Assembly (NCBI GenBank): GCA_026014815.1
Contig: JAOZHP010000151.1
Coordinates: forward strand, 62,001 to 126,000
Source: Candidatus Bathyarchaeota archaeon
Lineage (GTDB): Archaea; Thermoproteota; Bathyarchaeia; TCS64
Length of the DNA: 64,000 bases
Direction: 5' to 3'
This document shows, piece after piece, positions 1,046 through 38,363 of the stretch; positions within the stretch are counted from its first letter, which is position 1; every line of letters starts with the position of its first letter. Below the pieces are notes generated by a model, which ran no database searches, was not told the origin of the DNA, and saw nothing but the letters and a program-made list of their open reading frames with translations. Position numbers and translations under genes: made by a program.

Positions 1046-1354
1046 CTAGTTATTGTTCGATGGTTTGTATTTTGATACGAGTCTCCGCTGGAGGCTTTCA
1101 GCGTTAGTCTCTGACGTGGTGAATAATGCTTTAACGTGCTCCGCCCCAGTATCTTTTCCAATTTCCATTGCTTGATTTATTTCCTGAAGCATCTTCCCGT
1201 GGCCGGCTTTCCCTATGTATTTCACATTGTATAGGCTATCAGTAAAAACATAGACTCCCGACCGAGGCTCAATAGTGCCGAGATTCTGAAGTGATTTCCA
1301 AGGACTAACCTTTAGGATTCTTCTATCTTTCTCGTCGTTGGGACCCCATCTCAC
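1046..1354 (-). CDS. Small stand-alone GIY-YIG domain protein
   Basis: About 102 residues. The segment SGVYVFTDSLYNVKYIGKAG has the GIY and YIG motifs with normal spacing, and the end (ESLQRRLVSKYKPSNN) matches the glutamate helix and KPxxN tail of the GIY-YIG nuclease superfamily. The domain normally cuts DNA or RNA as a single-metal endonuclease. The protein has nothing else, so its target is unknown. Starts TTG 1357 and GTG 1354 are both possible; GTG 1354 sits about 7 nt after a GGTGAT Shine-Dalgarno-like sequence. It stands alone, between the D-aminoacylase and the Lrp gene. Confidence 0.65.
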   Translation of the reverse strand: MRWGPNDEKDRRILKVSPWKSLQNLGTIEPRSGVYVFTDSLYNVKYIGKAGHGKMLQEINQAMEIGKDTGAEHVKALFTTSETNAESLQRRLVSKYKPSNNN

Positions 1355-1395
1355 CAAGGATCACCGATTATCCCTCCCCCAAGCGAAACATAACG

Positions 1396-25404: not shown

Positions 25405-25441
25405 TATTTATACTGCACACGTATTGTATCGTTTGACTAAT

Positions 25442-26080
25442 ATGAATCAATCGTTCGACGAGAAAGAACTGGAGCGGGAGATGTTTCTTGACTCCACCCA
25501 GGATGGCTTGATGGAGCTCTTGCTTGGAGTCAGCATGATGGGCGTCGCGGCGGCCTCAAAATCACTCATTTTCATACCCCTCTTCATTGTACCCTTGGTC
25601 TTTGGGAGGCAGATCTCGGAGTTTGTTAGGAGGCGCCTTACTTACCCTAGGATCGGTTATGTGAAATTAAGGGAAGAGCCGGCGGGCAAGGCTATCGGAG
25701 GTGTCTTTCTCTATGAGTTCGTCATTCTCATGGTTTCAGCGGTTTTTATTTGGATACGGTATGGTGACGTGATGGAGTTCCGTCTCTGGGCTAGTTGGTC
25801 GTCTCTGATAATCGGGGTGTTACTGCTTGGTTTATTCCTGTATTTGCATGATAAATCCGGTAAAAAACGGTACCTGGCAATCGGAGGGTTATCCGTGTTG
25901 ACTGGACTCGTTTTTTCAGTCATCAGCTTCGACATAACTTTCCCATACATATTCGGATATTTCGGTCCCGGCGTAGTTCTTTACTTCCTCCTTATGGGAA
26001 CCGTGATGCTCCTCAGTGGAATAATTCAACTCATCAGTTTCGTATCCAGGAACCCAGTCTCAGCGGAGGATAGAGATTAG
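25442..26080 (+). CDS. Multi-pass membrane protein paired with a winged-helix regulator
   Basis: 212 residues from ATG 25442. Hydrophobic segments near 25-55, 85-105, 115-135, 145-165 and 175-200; charged cytoplasmic N-terminus. No family recognised. It overlaps the winged-helix gene by one base. Pairs of a membrane protein and a short HTH_27-type regulator recur in archaea, and the operator upstream suggests joint autoregulation. Confidence 0.75.
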   Translation: MNQSFDEKELEREMFLDSTQDGLMELLLGVSMMGVAAASKSLIFIPLFIVPLVFGRQISEFVRRRLTYPRIGYVKLREEPAGKAIGGVFLYEFVILMVSAVFIWIRYGDVMEFRLWASWSSLIIGVLLLGLFLYLHDKSGKKRYLAIGGLSVLTGLVFSVISFDITFPYIFGYFGPGVVLYFLLMGTVMLLSGIIQLISFVSRNPVSAEDRD

Positions 26081-26400
26081 TGTCGGAACCAGAAACGGGC
26101 CCAGATAAAAGCCCCATGATGAAGATTAACCGCCTCATACATGAGCCAGCCAGGTTCAGCATCATGGCTCAGCTCAGTGTTGTGGAGGAAGCTGACTTCC
26201 TGTTCCTGTCTCGTCGCATAGGTCTAACGCGGGGCAACCTGTCGGCTCATATGAGAAAACTGGAGGATGAAGGCTATATCGAGGTTAGGAAGGGGTTCAT
26301 GGGTCGTAGGCCCCACACGGTGCTTGCCATCACCGAAGAGGGGCATAAAGCTTTCAAGACTTATTTAATGGACCTGAAAAACGCCCTTCAGGCGTTTTAA
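26080..26400 (+). CDS. Winged-helix transcriptional regulator (HTH_27/MarR-like)
   Basis: 106 residues. HEPARFSIMAQLSVVEEADFLFLSRRIGLTRGNLSAHMRKLEDEGYIEVRKGFMGRRPHTVLAITEEG is a complete winged helix-turn-helix with its wing. GTG start overlaps the last base of the membrane-protein gene. Probably represses its own operon through the repeat at 25388-25404. Confidence 0.88.
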   Translation: MSEPETGPDKSPMMKINRLIHEPARFSIMAQLSVVEEADFLFLSRRIGLTRGNLSAHMRKLEDEGYIEVRKGFMGRRPHTVLAITEEGHKAFKTYLMDLKNALQAF

Positions 26401-26710: not shown

Positions 26711-27421
26711 TTATGGATTGAATGGTTCTGCTTTATTTTCGAAGTTGGGGGGTATTGCTATGTATTTTTGGAGTTGTTTCTCGTGTTTTGTGTGGTCTGG
26801 TAGTATTTTTTCAAGTTTGTGGTGGAATCCTTTCTGGTGGTGGAAGTGGGTGAGGTGTACTGCTTCGTGGATTATGATGTATTCTGCGAGTTTTTGTGGT
26901 AGTGTGGTTAGCTGCCAGTTGTAGATGATCCGTCCTTTCTTGTTGCAGTAGCCCCATCTGCTTGTGTCGGCGACTCGGGTTATCTCGGGGAGGGATTCGA
27001 GGGTTTCCTTGTGTTTCTCTAGGGTTTTCTGTATTAGTTGCTCGGTTTCTTTGATGACCCATCTTTTCAGTATCCTTGCTGGGCCCTCGTAGGGCTTCAC
27101 GTGCAGGGTTAAGGTGTCTGGGGTAAGTGTTACTCTGGGGTCTTGTGGGTTTTCTGTTGTCTTGATCTGGATTTTTCTTGGCGTTCCGTTGATATGTATA
27201 GCTCCGTCGGCGAGTATTCTGATCTTGGCTTTTGCTTCCCTGTATTTTCGTGTGAATAAGTCTTCTTTTTCCTTGATCAGGGTGTTTAGGTCGATTTCTT
27301 GTCCGCGGGGGATTCGGATGATGATTCTGCCTGATTTGAACTCGATGTCCAGAGATTTTCGTGCGTCGCCTGGTCTTGTTTCTATTTTGACTTGTTCGTC
27401 GTCGATGGTTATGGTTTTCAT
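26711..27421 (-). CDS. YgjP-type metallopeptidase (DUF45) linked to type I RM
   Basis: 236 residues from ATG 27421, which overlaps the hsdR stop by the 4-base ATGA. Zinc motif YIIIHEAVHLTHFHHQKGFHHKLEKILPDH (HExxH plus a third histidine) and the GYCNKKGRIIYNWQL segment are the YgjP signature. The family is often found beside hsdR genes; its role there is not established. Last gene of the six-gene operon. Confidence 0.85.
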   Translation of the reverse strand: MKTITIDDEQVKIETRPGDARKSLDIEFKSGRIIIRIPRGQEIDLNTLIKEKEDLFTRKYREAKAKIRILADGAIHINGTPRKIQIKTTENPQDPRVTLTPDTLTLHVKPYEGPARILKRWVIKETEQLIQKTLEKHKETLESLPEITRVADTSRWGYCNKKGRIIYNWQLTTLPQKLAEYIIIHEAVHLTHFHHQKGFHHKLEKILPDHTKHEKQLQKYIAIPPNFENKAEPFNP

Positions 27422-30294
27422 CTTGTTGGCCAGTTTCTCTCGATCCACTTGACGAAATCGTCTTTGAGTCTCATGAGTTGATTAATGTCTTCTACCTTGT
27501 CTTTGTATCGTTCGTGTAGACTCTCGAAAATTGTTACTTGGACAGCCCTATGCGTGTCTGTTTTAAGGTTCCAACCCGGGAATAATTTGGGTTCTAGTGT
27601 TTGCATGAGGTCTTTAATGAAAGATATGAGCTGCTTCTCGGGCACTTGGAGGATGTCCTGGGCTGAGATGAGCAGGGCGTACTCTGTTATACTGAGGTTT
27701 TTCGCCTTCATCTCCGCTTCCTTGTGGTTGATGTCCTTGACGAGCTGGCGGAAGTCGAGGTTCATTTGCTCGGGGTCTTTGAGTCTGAGGATACGTTCGA
27801 GTCTCTGGCTGAGTGTCTCGTAGAACTTAAGGGAGCCCAGGTTGATGCGTATGTGGACCGAGAGGGCCTGCCTGAGCTCCATGACCTCTTCTTCTGTGGT
27901 GAATTCTTCCTTTTCGAGTTCTCTGAGGTATTCGGGGCCTATGGTCAGTGTTGGAAGGGTTGTGTTGATCTCTTTGAGGACGAGCTTATCGCGGATGAGC
28001 TGCTGGGTCTTCTGCTGGTAGGGTTTGAGGCTGTCCTTTCCTCTGCGGAGGTGTTTGTTGTATGCTGCGTTTATCTTGTGGAACCATGTGTAGTCGTCGA
28101 GGTGGGGATAAAGGTCCTTGTCGGGGCTAATGGTCTCGAATAGTTTGGTGGCGGTGTCTAGATTTTGCTTGAAGACTGCCGTGTTGTCTTTTGTTTCGAG
28201 GAACTGGAATATCTTGTAGAGGGCTTCTCGGGTGTTTTCTCGGGGCTGGTTTTTGAATTGGGTGCGGAGCAGGTCCATGACCTCGTAGAAGTCTTCCTTG
28301 AGTTTCTCAAGCTGTTCTGCGACTCCTTCGATGTCTTCTAACTCGAAGTTGAGGGCGTCTTGGAGTCTGTAGAAGATGCCGACGTAGTCCACGATGAGGC
28401 CTTGGTTTTTGCCGGGATAGGGTCGATTGACTCTTGCTATGGCTTGGAGGAGGTTGTGGTCTCGGAGGGGTTTGTCGAGGTACATGGCTTTGAGGATGGG
28501 GGCGTCGAATCCGGTTAGGAGCATGTTGCAGACGATGAGGATGTTGGGTTTCTGGTCTTTTTTCTGGAATTCTTTTCGGGTGATGTCCAGCTGCTTGCTA
28601 CGGGTGAGGTAGTGGGATTTCAGGAGTTCCTCGACTTTGGGGTCCTTGTGTCTGCTTCCGCTGAATATTATCTGGCTGTTTTCGGGGGGTAGGTGTTTGT
28701 CCAGTTCCTGTTTGATTAGGCCGCAGGCTTCTCGGTCTACGCAGACGATCATGGCTTTGAAGCCGTTGGGCTCTATCTTGGTCTTGTAGTGTTCAGCGAT
28801 ATCCTCGGCTAGGCCTCGGATTCTAGCGTCTGCTTTTAGGATGGCGCGTATATTGGCTGATTTTTCTAGTACTTTTTCCTGTTCGTCCTTGTCGAGTCCT
28901 GAGGCGATCTTTAGGAATTCTCTGTCTAGGATTTCTCTGGGTAGTTGTTCTTTGGTGAGTCTGGGTTCGTAGACGAGGGGGATGGTTGATCCGTCTTCTT
29001 GGCTCTGGAGGATGCTGTATTTGTGGAGGTAGAGCTCCTCTTCGTCGGGGTAGCTGAATTCGGTGAATGTGTCTTTCTTGTTTTCTTTGTCGATGGGTGT
29101 TCCGGTGAAGGCGTAGAGGCTTGCGTTGGGGAAGGTGTTGTCTCGTTTGGTGGCTAGTTTGCCGTATTGGCTGCGGTGGGCCTCGTCTATGAGGATGATG
29201 ATGTTGTCGCGGGTGTCCACGTGGGGTATGTCCTGGAATTTCTGGATGGTGGTGATGATGACTTCCCTGCTCTCGTGCTGGATGAGTTGTCGGAGGGTGT
29301 CGATCCTGTCTGCCCATCGGGTGTGTGGGAACTCTGCGTTGGTGAAGGTTTCGCGGAACTGTTTCTCTAATTGTTTCCGGTCGACGAGTATGAAGACCGT
29401 GGGGTTTCTGAGCTCTGGCTGGCGTTTTAACTTCCATGCTGTGAAGAGCATGGTGAGGGTTTTCCCTGAGCCCTGGGTGTGCCAGATGAGGCCGTTCTTC
29501 TTTTCTCCGTGGAGGACTCTTTGGATGATCTTGTTGGTGGCTTCTGCTTGCTGCTGCATGGCGACTTTTTTGGTGATCTCGCCGTGGGCGGTCTCGAAGA
29601 CTATGAAGTTCTGGATGTAGTCGAGGACTCGTTCTCTGGTTAGGAGGTTCTTGACGGATGCTTCGAGGGGGTCGTAGTATCCGTTTCTCCATCTGTTGTA
29701 TCTGTTGGGGTCTGTCCAGCCGAATCTGAAGTTGGCTCCGTCTGTGGCTATGGTGTAGGCTAGGTGTTTGAATAGTTGGGGTGCTTCGTTGTTGTATCTG
29801 ATAATCTGGTTGACGGCATCTGTGTAGTCTGTTTCTTCGTGGCTCTGGGTTTTGCATTCGATAAGGATGAGAGGTATTCCGTTGATAAGTAAAATGATGT
29901 CAGGTCTAATATTCTGGCGACCGTGAAACACATACTGGTTGGTAATAGTATAGATATTATTGTCAGGATTGTCGTAGTCGATTAGTTTGATATCTTTACT
30001 GTGTTCGTTTTGTCTTAAACTGATTGAGCCTTCATTTCTGAGCCATGTGAAAAATTCCTTGTTACCTTTAATTTCGTTAGGAAGGTTGGCCAGTCTACCT
30101 ATGATGGTCTGGGCGTCACTATCTGTTTTGACCACAGAAGGATTGAACTTTCTAAGGGAGTTGTGTAGGATAGGTTTATCAAATGATTCATGAAACGCTC
30201 TATCGGTCTCTTGAGGAGGTTTATATGTCCAGCCCTGTTCCTGAAGCCAATTAATTATTGGCTTTTCCACCGTCTCCGATTCTGTGTAACCCAT
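27418..30294 (-). CDS. hsdR: Type I restriction enzyme, R subunit
   Basis: 958 residues. N-terminal PD-(D/E)XK nuclease (RPDIILLINGIPLILIECKTQ, about 130-150), helicase domain with Walker A WHTQGSGKTL and DEAH box ILIDEAHRSQYG, then C-terminal helical domain. Cuts unmethylated foreign DNA after translocation. All key motifs appear intact. Overlaps hsdS by 44 bases and the metallopeptidase gene by 4. Confidence 0.93.
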   Translation of the reverse strand: MGYTESETVEKPIINWLQEQGWTYKPPQETDRAFHESFDKPILHNSLRKFNPSVVKTDSDAQTIIGRLANLPNEIKGNKEFFTWLRNEGSISLRQNEHSKDIKLIDYDNPDNNIYTITNQYVFHGRQNIRPDIILLINGIPLILIECKTQSHEETDYTDAVNQIIRYNNEAPQLFKHLAYTIATDGANFRFGWTDPNRYNRWRNGYYDPLEASVKNLLTRERVLDYIQNFIVFETAHGEITKKVAMQQQAEATNKIIQRVLHGEKKNGLIWHTQGSGKTLTMLFTAWKLKRQPELRNPTVFILVDRKQLEKQFRETFTNAEFPHTRWADRIDTLRQLIQHESREVIITTIQKFQDIPHVDTRDNIIILIDEAHRSQYGKLATKRDNTFPNASLYAFTGTPIDKENKKDTFTEFSYPDEEELYLHKYSILQSQEDGSTIPLVYEPRLTKEQLPREILDREFLKIASGLDKDEQEKVLEKSANIRAILKADARIRGLAEDIAEHYKTKIEPNGFKAMIVCVDREACGLIKQELDKHLPPENSQIIFSGSRHKDPKVEELLKSHYLTRSKQLDITRKEFQKKDQKPNILIVCNMLLTGFDAPILKAMYLDKPLRDHNLLQAIARVNRPYPGKNQGLIVDYVGIFYRLQDALNFELEDIEGVAEQLEKLKEDFYEVMDLLRTQFKNQPRENTREALYKIFQFLETKDNTAVFKQNLDTATKLFETISPDKDLYPHLDDYTWFHKINAAYNKHLRRGKDSLKPYQQKTQQLIRDKLVLKEINTTLPTLTIGPEYLRELEKEEFTTEEEVMELRQALSVHIRINLGSLKFYETLSQRLERILRLKDPEQMNLDFRQLVKDINHKEAEMKAKNLSITEYALLISAQDILQVPEKQLISFIKDLMQTLEPKLFPGWNLKTDTHRAVQVTIFESLHERYKDKVEDINQLMRLKDDFVKWIERNWPTR

Positions 30295-31459
30295 CCCCTT
30301 TCAACTCAACACGAATTTTACCTGAAAGTAATAGTTGCATTAGTCCTTGTTTGACTAAATTTAGATGTTTCTTTTTTTCTTTTTCATATAGTAGTTTTTT
30401 ATCATGATTTTCTAAAATTGATATAATTTTGTCTTGTTCCTTTTTCGGTGGAATAAATATTGGAACTTTTTTAAAATTTTTAGAGGCTATTCCTTTGAGA
30501 GTAGTACCAGTTGCTCTCATAAAACATTCTTTTTTTACATTATAATCTTGTAAAGCATACATTATGAATTTATTCAATAAAAGGCCTTTTTTTGATCGTA
30601 AACACACCAATCTTTGTGCAAGAGAAATTATTATATTGAAATTAATTTCAGCAACTTCTCCTAAAGGACCTTCGGTTGTAAAAAGAATGTCTCCTTTTTC
30701 TGGAAGCCCTCTAGTCATATATTTTTTATATGTGTCTTCTGAAACATATTTTAAATCTTCAAATATTACATTTCCGTCTCGAATATTATTTGATCTTATA
30801 TGAGGAATCCCTGAATCTGAATATGGTGGTGTTCTACCTCTATAATCAATAATTTTGCATATATTTCCAATTGGTAGAATTACCCAGTTTTTAGGTCTAT
30901 CACCTAAAGGTGTTTCCTTGTATTCCGTGTGTCCTATGCCTCTGGTGAAGAGTCGCTGCATGAGGCCCCGTTTCAGCTCCTCAGCCCTCTCGATGACCGC
31001 GTCCGTCAGACGGATACACTCATCCACCGTCCCCAGGACCTCGACGATACCACGCTGCTCAACAAGAGGAGGAATAGGAATTCTCAGGTAGCGTAAATCA
31101 CCAATAGACAAACTAGGTAGTGTAGTTTGTGTTTTTTCGCTAGATAATTTTCGATATGTCAAATATTCCGATAGAAAATTATAGTCGAGTTTCTTCGATT
31201 TCAGTTTTAAATAAAAGGTTGTATCTGAAGGCCAACAAGGTTCTTTTATTAATTGTATTGAACCAGCGTTACCTTTTCTACCAATAAGAATAGACGGGGC
31301 ATCAACTAAAGATTCATCAGTGCTATCATAAACACCGGATGACCCAATTACAGGTATATTTCCCTCTTTTTTTGGGTTAGCTTTTCCATAATTTATTTCT
31401 GTTAGTGCTTCGTCACCTAGCCTTCCTTGTCGCCATGGTCCTAATGGATTATTGTTCAT
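30251..31459 (-). CDS. hsdS: Type I restriction enzyme, specificity (S) subunit
   Basis: 402 residues. Two target-recognition domains (about 1-125 and 180-345) are separated by conserved helical spacers (EVLGTVDECIRLTDAVIERAEELKRGLMQRLFTRG and ILENHDKKLLYEKEKKKHLNLVKQGLMQLLLSGKIRV). The recognition domains are encoded by very AT-rich DNA while the first spacer (30905-31085) is GC-rich, which fits exchange of recognition cassettes. Overlaps hsdM by 11 bases. Recognition sequence cannot be predicted. Confidence 0.92.
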   Translation of the reverse strand: MNNNPLGPWRQGRLGDEALTEINYGKANPKKEGNIPVIGSSGVYDSTDESLVDAPSILIGRKGNAGSIQLIKEPCWPSDTTFYLKLKSKKLDYNFLSEYLTYRKLSSEKTQTTLPSLSIGDLRYLRIPIPPLVEQRGIVEVLGTVDECIRLTDAVIERAEELKRGLMQRLFTRGIGHTEYKETPLGDRPKNWVILPIGNICKIIDYRGRTPPYSDSGIPHIRSNNIRDGNVIFEDLKYVSEDTYKKYMTRGLPEKGDILFTTEGPLGEVAEINFNIIISLAQRLVCLRSKKGLLLNKFIMYALQDYNVKKECFMRATGTTLKGIASKNFKKVPIFIPPKKEQDKIISILENHDKKLLYEKEKKKHLNLVKQGLMQLLLSGKIRVELKGDGLHRIGDGGKANN

Positions 31460-33059
31460 AGCCTAACTCCTTTAGATATACTACGAGTTTTTCTTCGGTT
31501 TCATGTCTTCGGTTTTCAAGCTCTTTGAGTTGGTCCCATACTTGCTGAATATCCACTGGCTCAGGGGGGTCAAAGATATCTACGTACCTTGTAACGCTGA
31601 GGTTCCAGTCATTCTCTTCAATCTCGTCTACTCCAACAACCCGTGAATACTTGTCTACATTACTGAAACCGTCAAACACCTCAACAATACGATGTATATC
31701 CTCATCCCTGAGTTGGTTCATATTACTTAGTTTCTCGAAACCTTCAGCAGCATAGGCAAACAGCACCTTACCTTTTCGAGCTTCAGTTTTATTTCTACTC
31801 AGATAGATCAGACAGCCTGGAGCACCAGTGTTATAGAACAACTTCTCGGGAAGAGCCACAACGCACTCAACGAGATCATCCCTTAGCACAGACTCCCTGA
31901 CCTTTCCCTCTGCTCCACCCCGGAATAGAGCACCCTGATCAAGCACGATGCCCATCCTGCCCGTCTCATTCATACTGGCAAGCATATGCTGAATCCAACC
32001 CCAGTCCGCGCTGCTGTTATTCACAACGCCATACCCGAACCGATCATACTGGTCGTCCTCCATGTACTGCTTGAACCCCTTCTGGTTCCACATCGGATTC
32101 GCGATAACCAGATCAAACTTCTTGAGCTCCCCTCCATCGAGAAACTGGGGGTTCACGAAGGTGTCCCCCTGCTGGATTTGCGCACTCATCCCGTGCAGGA
32201 ACACGTTCATCTTCGCCATGGCCCACGTCTCATCGTTGATCTCCTGACCGAACAGGAACAGATTACTCGCATCCAGCCCCCTCTCCTTCAGGTAGAAATA
32301 CGACTCAATCAGCATACCCCCCGACCCACAGCAGGGATCATACATCTCCATCCCCTCCCCCGGCTTCAGGCACTCCACCAGCACCCGCACAATCTCACGG
32401 GGAGTATAGAACTCCCCAGCCCTCTTCGGAGCCGCCTCGTTAAATTTCTTCAACAAATACTCGTAAGCATCCCCCAGCATATCCTGGGAGACGTTCCCGT
32501 TGGCCAGATTCCGCTGACTGAAATGCTCAATAAGCCTAACCAACCGCTCCTCCGGAATCGCATTCGGATTATTGAAATCCGTCCTGTTGATCACACGGTC
32601 AATATCAGGATTCGCCCGGGCAATCGCCTCCAGAACATCGTTCAGCTTGGAACCCACGTTCACCCCAGTGGCCCGCACATCCTCCCAGAAACACCCCTCG
32701 GGAACCTCATGATCGTAAAACATCTTATCCCGGGCCACCTCCTCATTCCCGAACTCCGCCAGCTTCGCATCATACGTCACACGATACTCATCGCTCAACC
32801 GCTTGAAGAACAACAACGGCAACATGAAATCCTGATAATCCTCAGCCCTCACCGCCCCCCGCAGAATATCCGCACCACCCCACAGCCAACTCCCTAGATC
32901 AGCCCTACTGTTAATCCCGTTAGTCGCCTTCACGTCATTCGCCAACTTAGCCTGCCTTTTACCTCTTCCACGCTTCCGCTTCACAGGCTCCAAGTTAAAA
33001 TCCACACTCACAACGGGCACCCGGATACATGGAATAAACGCAACCCCTGATAAAACCAT
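31449..33059 (-). CDS. hsdM: Type I modification methylase (M subunit)
   Basis: 536 residues as opened at 33059; the true start is probably some 20 codons later, before KRKRGRGKRQAK. Helical N-domain with GSWLWGGADILRGAVRAEDYQDFMLPLLFFKRLSDEY, SAM site YDPCCGSGGML, catalytic NPMW (a variant of NPPF/Y, N6-adenine methylase). Needs HsdS for target choice. Same operon as hsdS and hsdR. Confidence 0.93.
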   Translation of the reverse strand: MVLSGVAFIPCIRVPVVSVDFNLEPVKRKRGRGKRQAKLANDVKATNGINSRADLGSWLWGGADILRGAVRAEDYQDFMLPLLFFKRLSDEYRVTYDAKLAEFGNEEVARDKMFYDHEVPEGCFWEDVRATGVNVGSKLNDVLEAIARANPDIDRVINRTDFNNPNAIPEERLVRLIEHFSQRNLANGNVSQDMLGDAYEYLLKKFNEAAPKRAGEFYTPREIVRVLVECLKPGEGMEMYDPCCGSGGMLIESYFYLKERGLDASNLFLFGQEINDETWAMAKMNVFLHGMSAQIQQGDTFVNPQFLDGGELKKFDLVIANPMWNQKGFKQYMEDDQYDRFGYGVVNNSSADWGWIQHMLASMNETGRMGIVLDQGALFRGGAEGKVRESVLRDDLVECVVALPEKLFYNTGAPGCLIYLSRNKTEARKGKVLFAYAAEGFEKLSNMNQLRDEDIHRIVEVFDGFSNVDKYSRVVGVDEIEENDWNLSVTRYVDIFDPPEPVDIQQVWDQLKELENRRHETEEKLVVYLKELGYEQ

Positions 33060-33096
33060 CCAATGAAGAAAACCACATATACAATGACAACCAACC

Positions 33097-34041
33097 TCAC
33101 TTCCCCATCATAAACAAAGCCATCTCAACATCACTAACACTGAAAGGATACCCCTTCTCACCCAGATACCAACCCATGATCCCCAGCACCCAAATCAACC
33201 GCTCATAATTCTCAGCCCAAACTCTATCCAAACAAACATCACCGGGACGACCCCTACCAACAGGACACTTAATCAACCTGACACCATCCTCATCCACCAG
33301 ACTCCTCAAAGCAGTACCAACCCGGCTATCATAAACAGCGTAAAGGTTCTGATCATACAAACCAATAACCTTCGAAGCACTAGCTATACCAACCCCACGA
33401 ACAGACAACAACCTAAGAGTAGCGGACACTAAATCCCCGGCATCGAGCAACGAAAACGCCTCACCTGTAACCCTCAACGCCTCATCCTCATCCAAAGCGA
33501 TATGCCTCAAACCACCCCAATCCATCACACGATCCAGAGTCCCAAGATCAACACTACCCTTATTGAGAATCCGAGACCTAACAATAGAGGTCTGAATCGA
33601 GTTTCTTTCCCGAACACAACCCAACATAGGTTTATCGCCCCACGAATAATTCCTACGAGCCTCAACAACCTCCTCGAAATGCTCTTCAGCCCAATTTTCT
33701 ACGATGTCTCCATACTCCTCAATAAACGCACCTTTAGGATCACTAGACCCCTCGACAGGACAGAGCTTGGTCTCAACTGGAGTCAACGTGAAATCCAGAC
33801 TAAATCTCCCAGAGCCATGATACTTGAAATAAGGGTGATTCCTCCGAGTCGAGGGATAATGGGGGCTAGAAGGATGTTCGGGAGCCATAGCAATAACATA
33901 AGTCCGTATGGAAGTGTCAGGTATCTCTGGATACTTCTCATGAACACGGCGAATCACATCCATAGGCTTGAAAACAGCCAAGTCAAGACTCTTAGCAGCC
34001 TCAAGAACAATCTTCCAGATAGGCTCACCATACTTAGACAA
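33097..34041 (-). CDS. DUF7669-like / helix-hairpin-helix protein of the RM operon
   Basis: 314 residues, TTG start directly after the stop of the upstream nuclease gene. Residues 1-82 (GEPIWKIVLEAAKSL...IRTYVIAMAPEHPSSPHYPSTRRNHPYF) resemble DUF7669, a winged-helix-like domain seen with restriction genes. Residues 204-245 (SATLRLLSVRGVGIASASKVIGLY) look like the helix-hairpin-helix of DNA glycosylases, though no glycosylase lysine is obvious. Likely a DNA-binding partner of the GIY-YIG protein. Domain names are from memory. Confidence 0.6.
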   Translation of the reverse strand: MSKYGEPIWKIVLEAAKSLDLAVFKPMDVIRRVHEKYPEIPDTSIRTYVIAMAPEHPSSPHYPSTRRNHPYFKYHGSGRFSLDFTLTPVETKLCPVEGSSDPKGAFIEEYGDIVENWAEEHFEEVVEARRNYSWGDKPMLGCVRERNSIQTSIVRSRILNKGSVDLGTLDRVMDWGGLRHIALDEDEALRVTGEAFSLLDAGDLVSATLRLLSVRGVGIASASKVIGLYDQNLYAVYDSRVGTALRSLVDEDGVRLIKCPVGRGRPGDVCLDRVWAENYERLIWVLGIMGWYLGEKGYPFSVSDVEMALFMMGK

Positions 34042-35304
34042 CTAAACACCATCCTTCCTAAAACGAACCCATTCCCCAAGAGAAACACCATTAATTAACC
34101 AACCAAAATCAGTCCAAGCTCTACTATGAGGCTGCCCACTATTAGCCCACCAAGGACGATGCTCAAAAGCAGAATCCGGCAACCCAAACCCGAGTATCTC
34201 CTCAACTTCATCATACGACAGAGTAACTACATCATCAGAACACTCATCAAGATACTCTCCAATCTTCCTGTACTTACCGGAATAACCTGTTTTTTTACCC
34301 GATGATCTTGGAATTGATTTGTTCCATGGAGGCTTCACTTTCCCAATAAGTTTCGGTTCAATAGCATCAATGTCAGTTGTTTCATGGAAATATAGCTCAA
34401 CCAAAAAACCGTCCTTGACTTTTTCAAGAATCAGGTTATTTATTCTACAGTTCGTTTGCTGACCGCCGTCAAAACAGTTCCTCGGTGAAATGTTCCCATA
34501 TCCCTGATTGAAACGCTTGCCAAGGTCATCCGCTTTTCCAATATACATCCAGTCCCCATTAATCCTAATTGCGTACACTCCCTTTGAACCATTATAATTA
34601 GATGGAATCCGGAAAGAACAGAACGGACCTAGCCCATAAGAATGAAGGCTCAAACCCTTTGTGTTGTTATAACGTTTGTCAGGGTTATGCTCATAAACAG
34701 AACCAGACTCATCTCTAGCTGGCTCTATATTACAAATCTTCATAAATCGATACCCCAAAATCCTAGAAGTACTTGAGTTGTCAAACAATCTAAGCAATCT
34801 AAACTGCTCCTCACTTAACACAAGCTCAGAATTTCTGTGCTCAGTGAAAACCATCGCCTCCTCCCAGTCCCCCTTCCTAACACTCGTAGCTAAGCCCACC
34901 CTAACCCCCCTTTCTCTAAGCTTAGTCATCAGCTTCGCCATATTGAAAAGATAAACCTGAGAAATAATCAATGGGCGAGTCTTCCCACGGGAACTGGAAA
35001 GATCGCCCTCCGCACCAGTCATAACAAGATAATAATCAGCAAGATGATCAGGGTTGATATCCAGAATATTCTCCTTTTTCCCGTAGAGCTTAACATTAAC
35101 AGATTTACCCTTCAAAGAACCCTCGATAAAACAACCGTCAATACCCTTAGCCGTTGCAGATAGCTCCAACTCTATAATGAAAATCTTGGAAGAGATATAA
35201 TCCCCTATATGCCCAATCAAAGCAGGTCTACCAATAATCCCAGCGATCTCCTCAGAAACCCGATTCCTCTCAGAAACCAGATTAGCCAACCTTTCTAAAC
35301 TCAT
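34042..35304 (-). CDS. Predicted three-domain nuclease: DUF6998-like, GIY-YIG, DUF7662-like
   Basis: 420 residues. Residues 1-170 resemble DUF6998, a PD-(D/E)XK-like domain (GHIGDYISSKIF...GIDG...SVNVKLY). Residues 241-330 are GIY-YIG (GVYAI 242-246, MYIGKA 253-258, R264, E316 in IEPKLI). Residues 365-417 resemble DUF7662 (LPDSAFEHRPWWANSG...WLINGVSLGEWVRF). ATG 35304 has GGTGG 8-9 nt upstream. First gene of the operon. It may be a second restriction nuclease, or a helper of the type I enzyme. Confidence 0.7.
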   Translation of the reverse strand: MSLERLANLVSERNRVSEEIAGIIGRPALIGHIGDYISSKIFIIELELSATAKGIDGCFIEGSLKGKSVNVKLYGKKENILDINPDHLADYYLVMTGAEGDLSSSRGKTRPLIISQVYLFNMAKLMTKLRERGVRVGLATSVRKGDWEEAMVFTEHRNSELVLSEEQFRLLRLFDNSSTSRILGYRFMKICNIEPARDESGSVYEHNPDKRYNNTKGLSLHSYGLGPFCSFRIPSNYNGSKGVYAIRINGDWMYIGKADDLGKRFNQGYGNISPRNCFDGGQQTNCRINNLILEKVKDGFLVELYFHETTDIDAIEPKLIGKVKPPWNKSIPRSSGKKTGYSGKYRKIGEYLDECSDDVVTLSYDEVEEILGFGLPDSAFEHRPWWANSGQPHSRAWTDFGWLINGVSLGEWVRFRKDGV

Positions 35305-35884: not shown

Positions 35885-36127
35885 GTGCCATCCAAGAGCA
35901 TACACATCACAGAAGAGGTATACCTGCTCCTCACAAAGATGAAGCTAACCGGAGAAAGCTTCAGCGACACAATCAAAAGACTCGCCAAACGAGAAAGCGT
36001 CCTAGACGCCGCAGGTCTCTGGAAAGATGTACCCAAGAAAGAGATAGACGAGTTCTGGGCAGCAATCCATGATACACGGAGAAAATTAAGCAAGTCAACG
36101 CGGACAAGACCCAATATAAATCACTGA
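35885..36127 (+). CDS. VapB-family antitoxin without a toxin partner
   Basis: 80 residues, GTG start at 35885 after a TATA-like ACATATACT (35874-35882). SKSIHITEEVYLLLTKMKLTGESFSDTIKRLAKRE is the ribbon-helix-helix-type VAPB_antitox domain, and the tail (LDAAGLWKDVPKKEIDEFW) is the part that would wrap a PIN toxin. The next 75 bases hold no PIN gene; the dipeptidase fragment follows at once, so the toxin may have been lost by the insertion. Confidence 0.7.
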   Translation: MPSKSIHITEEVYLLLTKMKLTGESFSDTIKRLAKRESVLDAAGLWKDVPKKEIDEFWAAIHDTRRKLSKSTRTRPNINH

Positions 36128-36547: not shown

Positions 36548-36619
36548 CGGTATACTGCAATCAAAAATAGAAATAATTATTTATTGTTTTCATTACAGTA
36601 TACCGTAAAAGGGTATACT
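36548..36619. promoter_or_regulatory. Inverted-repeat operators of the abiE operon
   Basis: CGGTATACTG (36548-36557) and CAGTATACCG (36596-36605) are exact inverted copies 38 bp apart. A third half, GGGTATACT (36611-36619), abuts the abiEi ATG. AbiEi antitoxins are known to repress their operon by binding inverted repeats, so these are probable sites. Confidence 0.6.
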
Positions 36620-37432
36620 ATGATCAAAAACAGCAAAGAACACTCGCAAGAAACCCTCTACAACTGGATACTAAAACGGAATTCAGCAACAAATGAGGAG
36701 ATCATTTCCCAGTTCAAAAACAGCCCAGACCCCAAATACATCTACATCAAGTACCTCAATCCTCTCCTCAAAAGAGGAAAAATTGACAGAGTACGACGAG
36801 GCCTCTACACTGCCATCGACCCAATAACCGAGAGACCGGCAGCAGACCCCATCATCGTTGCCTCCAAGATCAGAGAAAACTACTATCTCGGATACTACAC
36901 CGCCCTAACACTCCACGGCACAGCGTACAGCGCCAGAACACAGACCCACATATGTGTTAACCCGAGCCACAAATTCAAAGAGTTCCACTATAACGGCGTC
37001 ACATACACACCAATCTACACAGAGGACACAGAAACCAACATCCAGACCATAAACCACCGGGGACACCAAGTCCGAGTATGCGGAAAAGAAAGATTACTCA
37101 TAGAACTCGTAGACAAACCTGAACGCGTCGGAGGATGGGAGCAGGCACTAAAAAGCCTCGAAAGCCTAGGCGGCATAGACTACGACCAGATACCCACACT
37201 GCTCAGGAAAAAAGACACCCAAATCGTAACACGAAAAACAGGATACATACTGGAACTCCTCCAGCAACACAGCATCTACCACAAACACCTACCACAGGAA
37301 ACACAACAAGAAATACAGAACATGATAAAAGGCCAACCAGAATACCTAGAAAAAACCAAGTCCGGGCCACTAAACAAAAAATGGATGCTATACATTCAAC
37401 CCCGATTCACCGAGTACCTCCGAGGAATCTAA
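36620..37432 (+). CDS. abiEi: AbiEi antitoxin / transcriptional repressor
   Basis: 270 residues from ATG 36620. Residues 10-65 are a winged helix (TLYNWILKRNSATNEEIISQF...LNPLLKRGKIDRVRRGLYTA), followed by the AbiEi C-terminal domain (YYLGYYTALTLHGTAYS...GKERLLIELVDKPERVGGWEQALKSLESL). It neutralises AbiEii and represses the operon. The toxin gene starts one base after its stop. Bracketed by the dipeptidase repeats. Confidence 0.85.
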   Translation: MIKNSKEHSQETLYNWILKRNSATNEEIISQFKNSPDPKYIYIKYLNPLLKRGKIDRVRRGLYTAIDPITERPAADPIIVASKIRENYYLGYYTALTLHGTAYSARTQTHICVNPSHKFKEFHYNGVTYTPIYTEDTETNIQTINHRGHQVRVCGKERLLIELVDKPERVGGWEQALKSLESLGGIDYDQIPTLLRKKDTQIVTRKTGYILELLQQHSIYHKHLPQETQQEIQNMIKGQPEYLEKTKSGPLNKKWMLYIQPRFTEYLRGI

Positions 37433-37433
37433 A

Positions 37434-38363
37434 ATGAGCAGCTACGACTACAGACAACTGGAATCCAAGTACCAATACAATCCCCCACAAATCGAAAAAG
37501 TATGCAGAATAAGCGACATCCTAGAAACCATCTCACAGATACCATTCCTAAGTGAAAGACTATCCCTGTACGGGGGAACCGCCCTGAACATCATCCACTT
37601 CCCACAGATCCAACGCCTCAGCGTGGACATCGACTTCAACTACCGCCACCAAGGCGAAACCAAAGACTGGGGAAAAATACGCAAAGAGATCGATGAAGCC
37701 ACTAAACAGATCCTAGAAGCACAGACATACAAACCAGACGACATCAAGATCGACGCATCATATCCCCTGAGCAGGTTCACAGTCAAGTACAAGAACCACC
37801 AAGGAGTCAACGACACATTCAAAATCGAGACAGGTTACATGCGCCGCACACCTATCCTTGAAACAGACGCACACATGGACTTCCACCACATAGGCACCGG
37901 CAGAACCCTAAAAGTAAAGACTCCGAAAACAGAGGAACTCTACGCCAATAAACTGGTGACCCTGCTGTCAAGAGCCACTCCCAGAGACCTCTACGACGTC
38001 AATATCATCGCAAGTACTCCAGTGGACAGGGACACCCTGAGAAAATGCGTCATCCTTGAAAGCCTAATGAGTCTTCAGGAACCAATCACGAAGGTTGATA
38101 CCAGAAAAATCGTCAAAAGCACCCCCCTCGACGAAAGCCTCAAGTCAGTACTGAGAATAAAACAGAGACCAGATATCGAAAAGATACGGGAAAACGTGGT
38201 CCAGTTCAGCGAAACCCTGATCAGCAACCTAACAAAAAACGAGAGAGAATGCATAGACCACTTCTATACCCTGAGACAGTTCCAACCCGAACTCCTAGAG
38301 CTAACTGAAATAAATTCTCAGATAAACAGTCATCCCGCTATTCTCTGGGCACTAAAAAACTAG
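37434..38363 (+). CDS. abiEii: AbiEii toxin, nucleotidyltransferase
   Basis: 309 residues. GGTALNIIHFPQIQRLSVDIDFN is the DNA-polymerase-beta-type nucleotidyltransferase motif (G-G/S followed by DxD) of AbiEii/MenT toxins, and KTEELYANKLVTLLSRATPRDLYDV is the downstream catalytic-support segment. Family members arrest growth on phage infection by modifying tRNA or related targets; the target here is unknown. Motifs look intact. Confidence 0.85.
   Translation: MSSYDYRQLESKYQYNPPQIEKVCRISDILETISQIPFLSERLSLYGGTALNIIHFPQIQRLSVDIDFNYRHQGETKDWGKIRKEIDEATKQILEAQTYKPDDIKIDASYPLSRFTVKYKNHQGVNDTFKIETGYMRRTPILETDAHMDFHHIGTGRTLKVKTPKTEELYANKLVTLLSRATPRDLYDVNIIASTPVDRDTLRKCVILESLMSLQEPITKVDTRKIVKSTPLDESLKSVLRIKQRPDIEKIRENVVQFSETLISNLTKNERECIDHFYTLRQFQPELLELTEINSQINSHPAILWALKN

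Follow-up and report, generated by a model that had tools for sequence, protein, structure and literature searches.

Six closely packed genes, all on the minus strand, raise the question of whether a type I restriction-modification operon and two unfamiliar genes upstream of it operate as one machine, or whether unrelated modules have simply come to lie side by side. The genes span positions 26711-35304 of a 64,000-nucleotide stretch (the window) from a Candidatus Bathyarchaeota archaeon, contig JAOZHP010000151.1, and encode, from the downstream to the upstream end, a YgjP-like peptidase, HsdR, HsdS, HsdM, and two proteins here called P2 and P1 (Table 1). The initial annotation regarded this run as an expanded type I operon and possibly as a composite defence system. 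The explanation that we consider moderately likely is a different one, in which the locus would be a Bathyarchaeia defence island of adjacent, separable modules: an ordinary HsdMSR system with its YgjP protein, a P1-P2 nuclease module, and an AbiE pair.

Table 1. Coordinates and main characteristics of the features discussed (positions in the window)
Feature	Coordinates	Strand	Characteristics
Small ORF	1046-1357	-	103 aa; second small candidate GIY-YIG protein; GIY-YIG-like motifs SGVYVF...YIGKAG...ESLQRRLVSKYKP
YgjP-like	26711-27448	-	PF01863 zinc metallopeptidase; HExxH kept; usual hsdR neighbour in the class
hsdR	27418-30294	-	type I restriction subunit; nuclease motif PD...ECK, Walker A GSGKT, DEAH
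hsdS	30251-31459	-	two specificity domains; much lower GC (35%) than neighbours
hsdM	31449-33059	-	type I methyltransferase; motif NPMWNQ; likely true start GTG 33011
P2	33097-34041	-	314 aa, TTG start; DUF7669 winged-helix-like 1-82; helical HhH domain about 105-314
P1	34042-35304	-	420 aa; DUF6998-like 1-175, GIY-YIG 205-330, DUF7662 346-418
VapB-like ORF	35885-36127	+	VapB-type antitoxin-like; between P1 and AbiE
AbiEi	36584-37432	+	divergent type IV toxin-antitoxin / abortive infection pair, with AbiEii
AbiEii	37434-38363	+	see AbiEi

The type I restriction-modification operon

HsdM, HsdS and HsdR give strong type I profile matches in Pfam, PADLOC and NCBIfam, and display the features by which such systems are recognized: N6-methyltransferase motifs in HsdM (the NPMWNQ motif is also present in a relative from the same class), two specificity domains in HsdS, and a nuclease and SF2 motor in HsdR. 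With the YgjP protein, which matches PF01863 at E = 3.4e-33, they make up a type I restriction-modification operon that is complete and ordinary, and belongs to a family that methylates and restricts DNA in the usual way. The low GC content of hsdS is accompanied by a GC3 of 24%, against values of about 50% (GC) and 61-64% (GC3) in hsdM and hsdR, suggesting an exchange of the specificity gene.

The six genes abut or overlap as initially described, with spacings that range from a 44-bp overlap (hsdR/hsdS), through overlaps of 31 bp (ygjP/hsdR) and 11 bp (hsdS/hsdM), to 37 bp between P2 and hsdM. The latter figure, however, depends on the annotated hsdM ATG. The first 16 residues read from this codon are without counterparts in a relative, while residue 17 onward (VSVDFNLEPV...) aligns with the start of the relative's HsdM (MSDIDFSLTPV..., locus L103). 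The true start is probably the GTG at 33011, 48 bp inside the annotated ORF, which would leave a gap of 85 bp after P2. A promoter scan, whose coverage does not extend to archaeal promoters, detected no excess over shuffled sequences.

The YgjP gene had been counted as part of an unusual composite, and this did not hold. Among the nine loci of the class that were read, it follows hsdR in all five that are readable past hsdR, with the same gene order as in the window (the contigs of the remaining four break off before hsdR or shortly beyond it), and it must therefore be seen as an ordinary part of the operon. A published parallel exists in the RptR-RMS-DarTG-M48 island of E. coli (EPEC), where a type I system is accompanied by a predicted M48 metallopeptidase (PMC12255303). 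The window shares with type I systems of this kind the hsdM-hsdS-hsdR order, all motifs, and a YgjP-like gene after hsdR, but differs from them by its two extra upstream genes, which are absent from every related type I locus examined.

P1, a protein with a GIY-YIG nuclease domain

The domain reading originally proposed for P1, namely a PD-(D/E)XK-like, a GIY-YIG and a DUF7662-like domain, proved to be right for the last two, which are firm, with a putative PD-(D/E)XK-like domain at the N-terminus. DUF7662 is matched above the Pfam cut-off (E = 4.6e-15), and the Pfam GIY-YIG match is sub-threshold (E = 0.012). The PHROG endonuclease profile phrog_1111 matches the GIY-YIG domain at E = 3.9e-11, and a five-sequence profile of the subfamily to which P1 belongs, searched against all PDB chains, retrieves T4 endonuclease II first (2wsh, E = 6.9e-7, with only part of the domain aligned) and UvrC next (E = 8e-4). 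The assignment is secure by virtue of the PHROG match and the match of the subfamily profile to endonuclease II.

The motifs of the superfamily are all in place in P1 (G242-V-Y, Y254-I-G, the central R264, E316 and N328), and G242, V243, Y244, Y254, G256, R264, E316 and N328 are invariant in P1 and its four relatives; a loss of catalytic residues across homologues, which the initial annotation had named as an observation that would contradict it, was looked for, and the Tyr, Arg, Glu and Asn were found to be invariant instead. Residues H221, C229, C277 and C286, equally invariant in the subfamily, surround a NISPRNCFxGGQxTNCR block and could possibly form a zinc site. T4 endonuclease II, with which the phage breaks down the DNA of its host, provides the nearest solved GIY-YIG domain and has the GIY/YIG motif region in common with P1, whereas P1 possesses in addition this block, with its invariant His and Cys residues, and two flanking domains.

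The N-terminal 175 residues match DUF6998 below threshold (E = 0.006), and a free-standing relative of this domain matches the same family above the cut-off (E = 7.3e-7). D/E34, D56 and N70-x-K72 are conserved in three sequences, a pattern that resembles PD-(D/E)XK with Asn replacing the usual acid. No solved structure matched this domain in a PDB search, and the single-sequence AlphaFold model of P1 is unusable (mean pLDDT 36). Neither P1 nor P2 matched any PADLOC family up to E = 1 (5027 models) or any NCBIfam model. MADS was considered and rejected, MAD2 scoring 61.8 bits against a cut-off of 720, and MAD5 18.7 against 400.

P2, a DUF7669 protein with a helix-hairpin-helix

The DUF7669 domain initially proposed for P2 is matched in Pfam at E = 7.1e-11, and the fold matches of its model are winged-helix proteins: Fur, PhoB, FOXN1, and the HTH of the Dam-replacing protein. 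The proposed helix-hairpin-helix (HhH) stands by its sequence pattern (GVGxxxASKxIGLxDQ), by a match of 39 columns to a DUF6308 protein, and by the helical AlphaFold model of P2 (mean pLDDT 81), but is detected by no Pfam model. The match to DUF6308 reaches an hhalign score of 42, while 66 unrelated proteins of the window score at most 21. The remainder of the C-terminal domain corresponds to no Pfam family, and the C-terminal 210 residues belong to a family found here in Bathyarchaeia only.

An HhH protein beside a GIY-YIG nuclease evokes DNA repair: P2 could act in the manner of base excision by recognizing or removing a damaged base, and P1 could cut next to it, the pair being merely parked near defence genes. 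A precedent exists in MJ0613 of Methanocaldococcus jannaschii (COG1833), a GIY-YIG domain fused to endonuclease III, for which cooperation in excision repair has been proposed (PMC1564403); it is comparable to P1-P2 in associating a GIY-YIG domain with an HhH protein of DNA-repair type, although P1 and P2 are separate genes and the HhH of P2 is not detectably HhH-GPD by sequence. In addition, the best PDB fold matches of the whole-chain P2 model (Foldseek) are DUF2419 proteins, queuosine hydrolases for which a relationship to DNA glycosylases has been published (PMC9406330), followed by endonuclease III-3, both with non-significant E-values (0.13 and 3.9). However, the profile score of the P2 HhH against the genome's own HhH-GPD protein is 19, at the level of noise (unrelated proteins reach 21), and the Asp that follows the HhH is not strictly conserved, one relative having Asn in its place. 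These observations, together with the non-significant fold matches, led to the rejection of P2 as an HhH-GPD glycosylase. P1 and P2 are also rare and patchy, unlike core repair genes, and the closest GIY-YIG relatives sit on plasmids or mobile regions. A repair pair consequently appears improbable.

Occurrence and neighbours of P1 and P2 relatives

The stop of P1 and the TTG start of P2 do touch (34042 and 34041), as had been noted, and an AGGAAGG sequence lies upstream of the TTG. The three-domain fusion is absent from every other genome searched, and a second copy of the P1-P2 pair was not found in the searched genomes; both the fusion and the pairing are new, while the parts themselves are known. 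Elsewhere the pieces are split: DUF6308-type genes adjoin either the P1 N-terminal domain or GIY-YIG-DUF7662, and P2 is found next to Mrr. In genome G085 (locus L059), a GIY-YIG-DUF7662 gene comes next after a DUF6308-HhH gene. In G228 (L126), a free-standing relative of the P1 N-terminal domain (55% identical) is divergent from a DUF6308-C-terminal-like gene, which shares 48% identity with the C-terminal module of the G085 DUF6308-HhH protein. The only full-length relative of P2 is also encoded by G228 (JALHSQ010000079, Bathyarchaeota, the host's class), on another contig than L126, 139 bp from a Mrr-type nuclease. Since the families involved in these adjacencies are rare (5 of 257, 3 of 257 and 3 of 398 genomes), their repeated adjacency is unlikely to be due to chance. 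A two-gene nuclease module, as originally proposed, remains the best description of P1-P2.

Relatives of the nuclease part of P1 are found on Halorubrum, Haloplanus and Paenisporosarcina plasmids, and no P2 relatives were found on plasmids. The GIY-YIG plus DUF7662 proteins of L059 and of the Halorubrum and Haloplanus plasmids share the nuclease subfamily and the C-terminal domain with P1, but differ from it in lacking both the N-terminal DUF6998-like domain and type I neighbours. A viral origin of P1 and P2 was discarded, as phage records and IMG/VR scans yielded no relatives. A class-wide search with P1 mostly retrieved zinc-ribbon proteins that match through DUF7662 and have no relation to defence; basic-tailed, zinc-ribbon Bathyarchaeia proteins with this domain are common and occur in housekeeping settings (L009, L010, L013, L028), and DUF7662 is therefore no marker of defence.

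Several other features were observed at these loci. A UvrD-like helicase lies downstream of the L126 gene pair (L126:2899-6964), and in Paenisporosarcina (L037) a UvrD helicase likewise comes after the GIY-YIG gene. The C-terminal module associated with DUF6308 occurs a third time at L131:7667-8464 (minus strand), where a 99-aa gene without family assignment comes next. Fragments similar to the end of the P1 N-terminal domain (residues about 101-176) occur at L063:9290-9478 and L062:8452-8685, one of them with an in-frame stop; these are possibly decayed copies.

Relation of P1-P2 to the type I system

The initial proposal of a composite system implies that P1-P2 and HsdMSR act jointly, HsdM-S marking self, and P1-P2 and HsdR serving as two cutting arms, one of which would act on escaped or modified DNA. 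The six genes are co-directional and closely packed, P1-P2 lacks a methyltransferase of its own, and winged-helix and HhH domains could be suited to recognizing bases that are modified or flipped. Nevertheless, tight packing against hsd genes is by itself no evidence of a joint system. A related hsdM is present in 21 of 257 genomes of the class, and neither P1 nor P2 lies beside it at any of the nine loci read, so that the two genes fall outside the standard type I system, as had been suspected. No type I neighbours were found for the relatives of P1 and P2, be it on the Halorubrum, Haloplanus and Paenisporosarcina plasmids, in genomes G085, G359, G118 and G228, or at the P2-like loci; the initial annotation had itself held such scattering to speak against its proposal. 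The probable 85-bp gap before hsdM and the GC3 of P1 and P2 (40-45%, against 61-64% in hsdM and hsdR) point in the same direction, although the GC3 difference is weak on its own because hsdS differs too. A composite was hence abandoned as the best reading, and is considered unlikely. Given that their relatives occur without a type I operon, P1 and P2 look like a separate add-on module, and not part of one new machine.

The proposed defence island

The abutting P1 and P2 genes lie beside AbiE and a VapB-like ORF, a setting in which P1 could be imagined as a nuclease toxin and P2 as the partner that restrains it, in a toxin-antitoxin-like or abortive infection arrangement; the winged-helix form of DUF7669 is, moreover, typical of repressors. 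Antitoxins, however, are usually of smaller size, and their genes often lie ahead of the toxin gene, and the P1 nuclease-part relatives on Halorubrum and Haloplanus plasmids have no P2-like partner, which makes such an arrangement very unlikely.

The VapB-like ORF has no obvious VapC partner directly adjoining. AbiE-like genes also flank an hsd operon in another genome of the class (L098), where a GIY-YIG-looking gene and a DUF6884-like gene (weak Pfam match) are divergent from another Bathyarchaeia hsdM (L098:4734-5883, minus strand); the nuclease gene that stands beside type I restriction-modification genes there is a different one. With respect to the borders of the island, a genome of the same family (L105) carries orthologues of the two genes to its left (25424-26400), and then a different, unrelated gene, suggesting that the left border is a variable site; the flanks are on different contigs in same-family genomes, and in this empty-site comparison the left side alone is informative.

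Proposed mechanism and implications

The separable-module reading is thus favoured, with moderate confidence, by the invariant GIY-YIG set, the abutting genes, the nine hsdM loci without P1 and P2, the linked relatives, the GC3 values, the adjoining AbiE genes and the different gene found after the left flanking pair in L105. Against it stand the facts that the two-gene module is represented by one example and indirect links, no other genome carrying P1-P2, and that the lack of a methyltransferase of its own leaves self-protection unexplained.

On this separable-module reading, P1 and P2 would be translated together, and the GIY-YIG domain of P1 would cut foreign or unprotected DNA, as T4 endonuclease II or GIY-YIG restriction enzymes do. 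The PD-(D/E)XK-like N-terminal domain may provide a second nuclease or a grip on DNA, while DUF7662 may assist binding. P2 would bind DNA by its winged helix and HhH, and could direct, license or restrain P1. HsdMSR would work independently of both, although HsdM methylation could double as a self mark; if such marks did protect the host from P1, the composite reading would be revived, but nothing here favours such a use.

It is tentatively suggested that P1-P2 may be the first sighting of an archaeal restriction or defence module of two components that has so far gone undescribed. In it, a double-nuclease P1, combining PD-(D/E)XK-like and endonuclease II-type GIY-YIG domains with DUF7662, would be guided by a winged-helix/HhH reader; the pieces of the module recur, split, in other Bathyarchaeia. 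Should the module reading hold, it would enlarge the defence repertoire of Bathyarchaeia by a predicted nuclease/HhH pair, and would provide a first context for DUF7662, DUF7669 and DUF6308.
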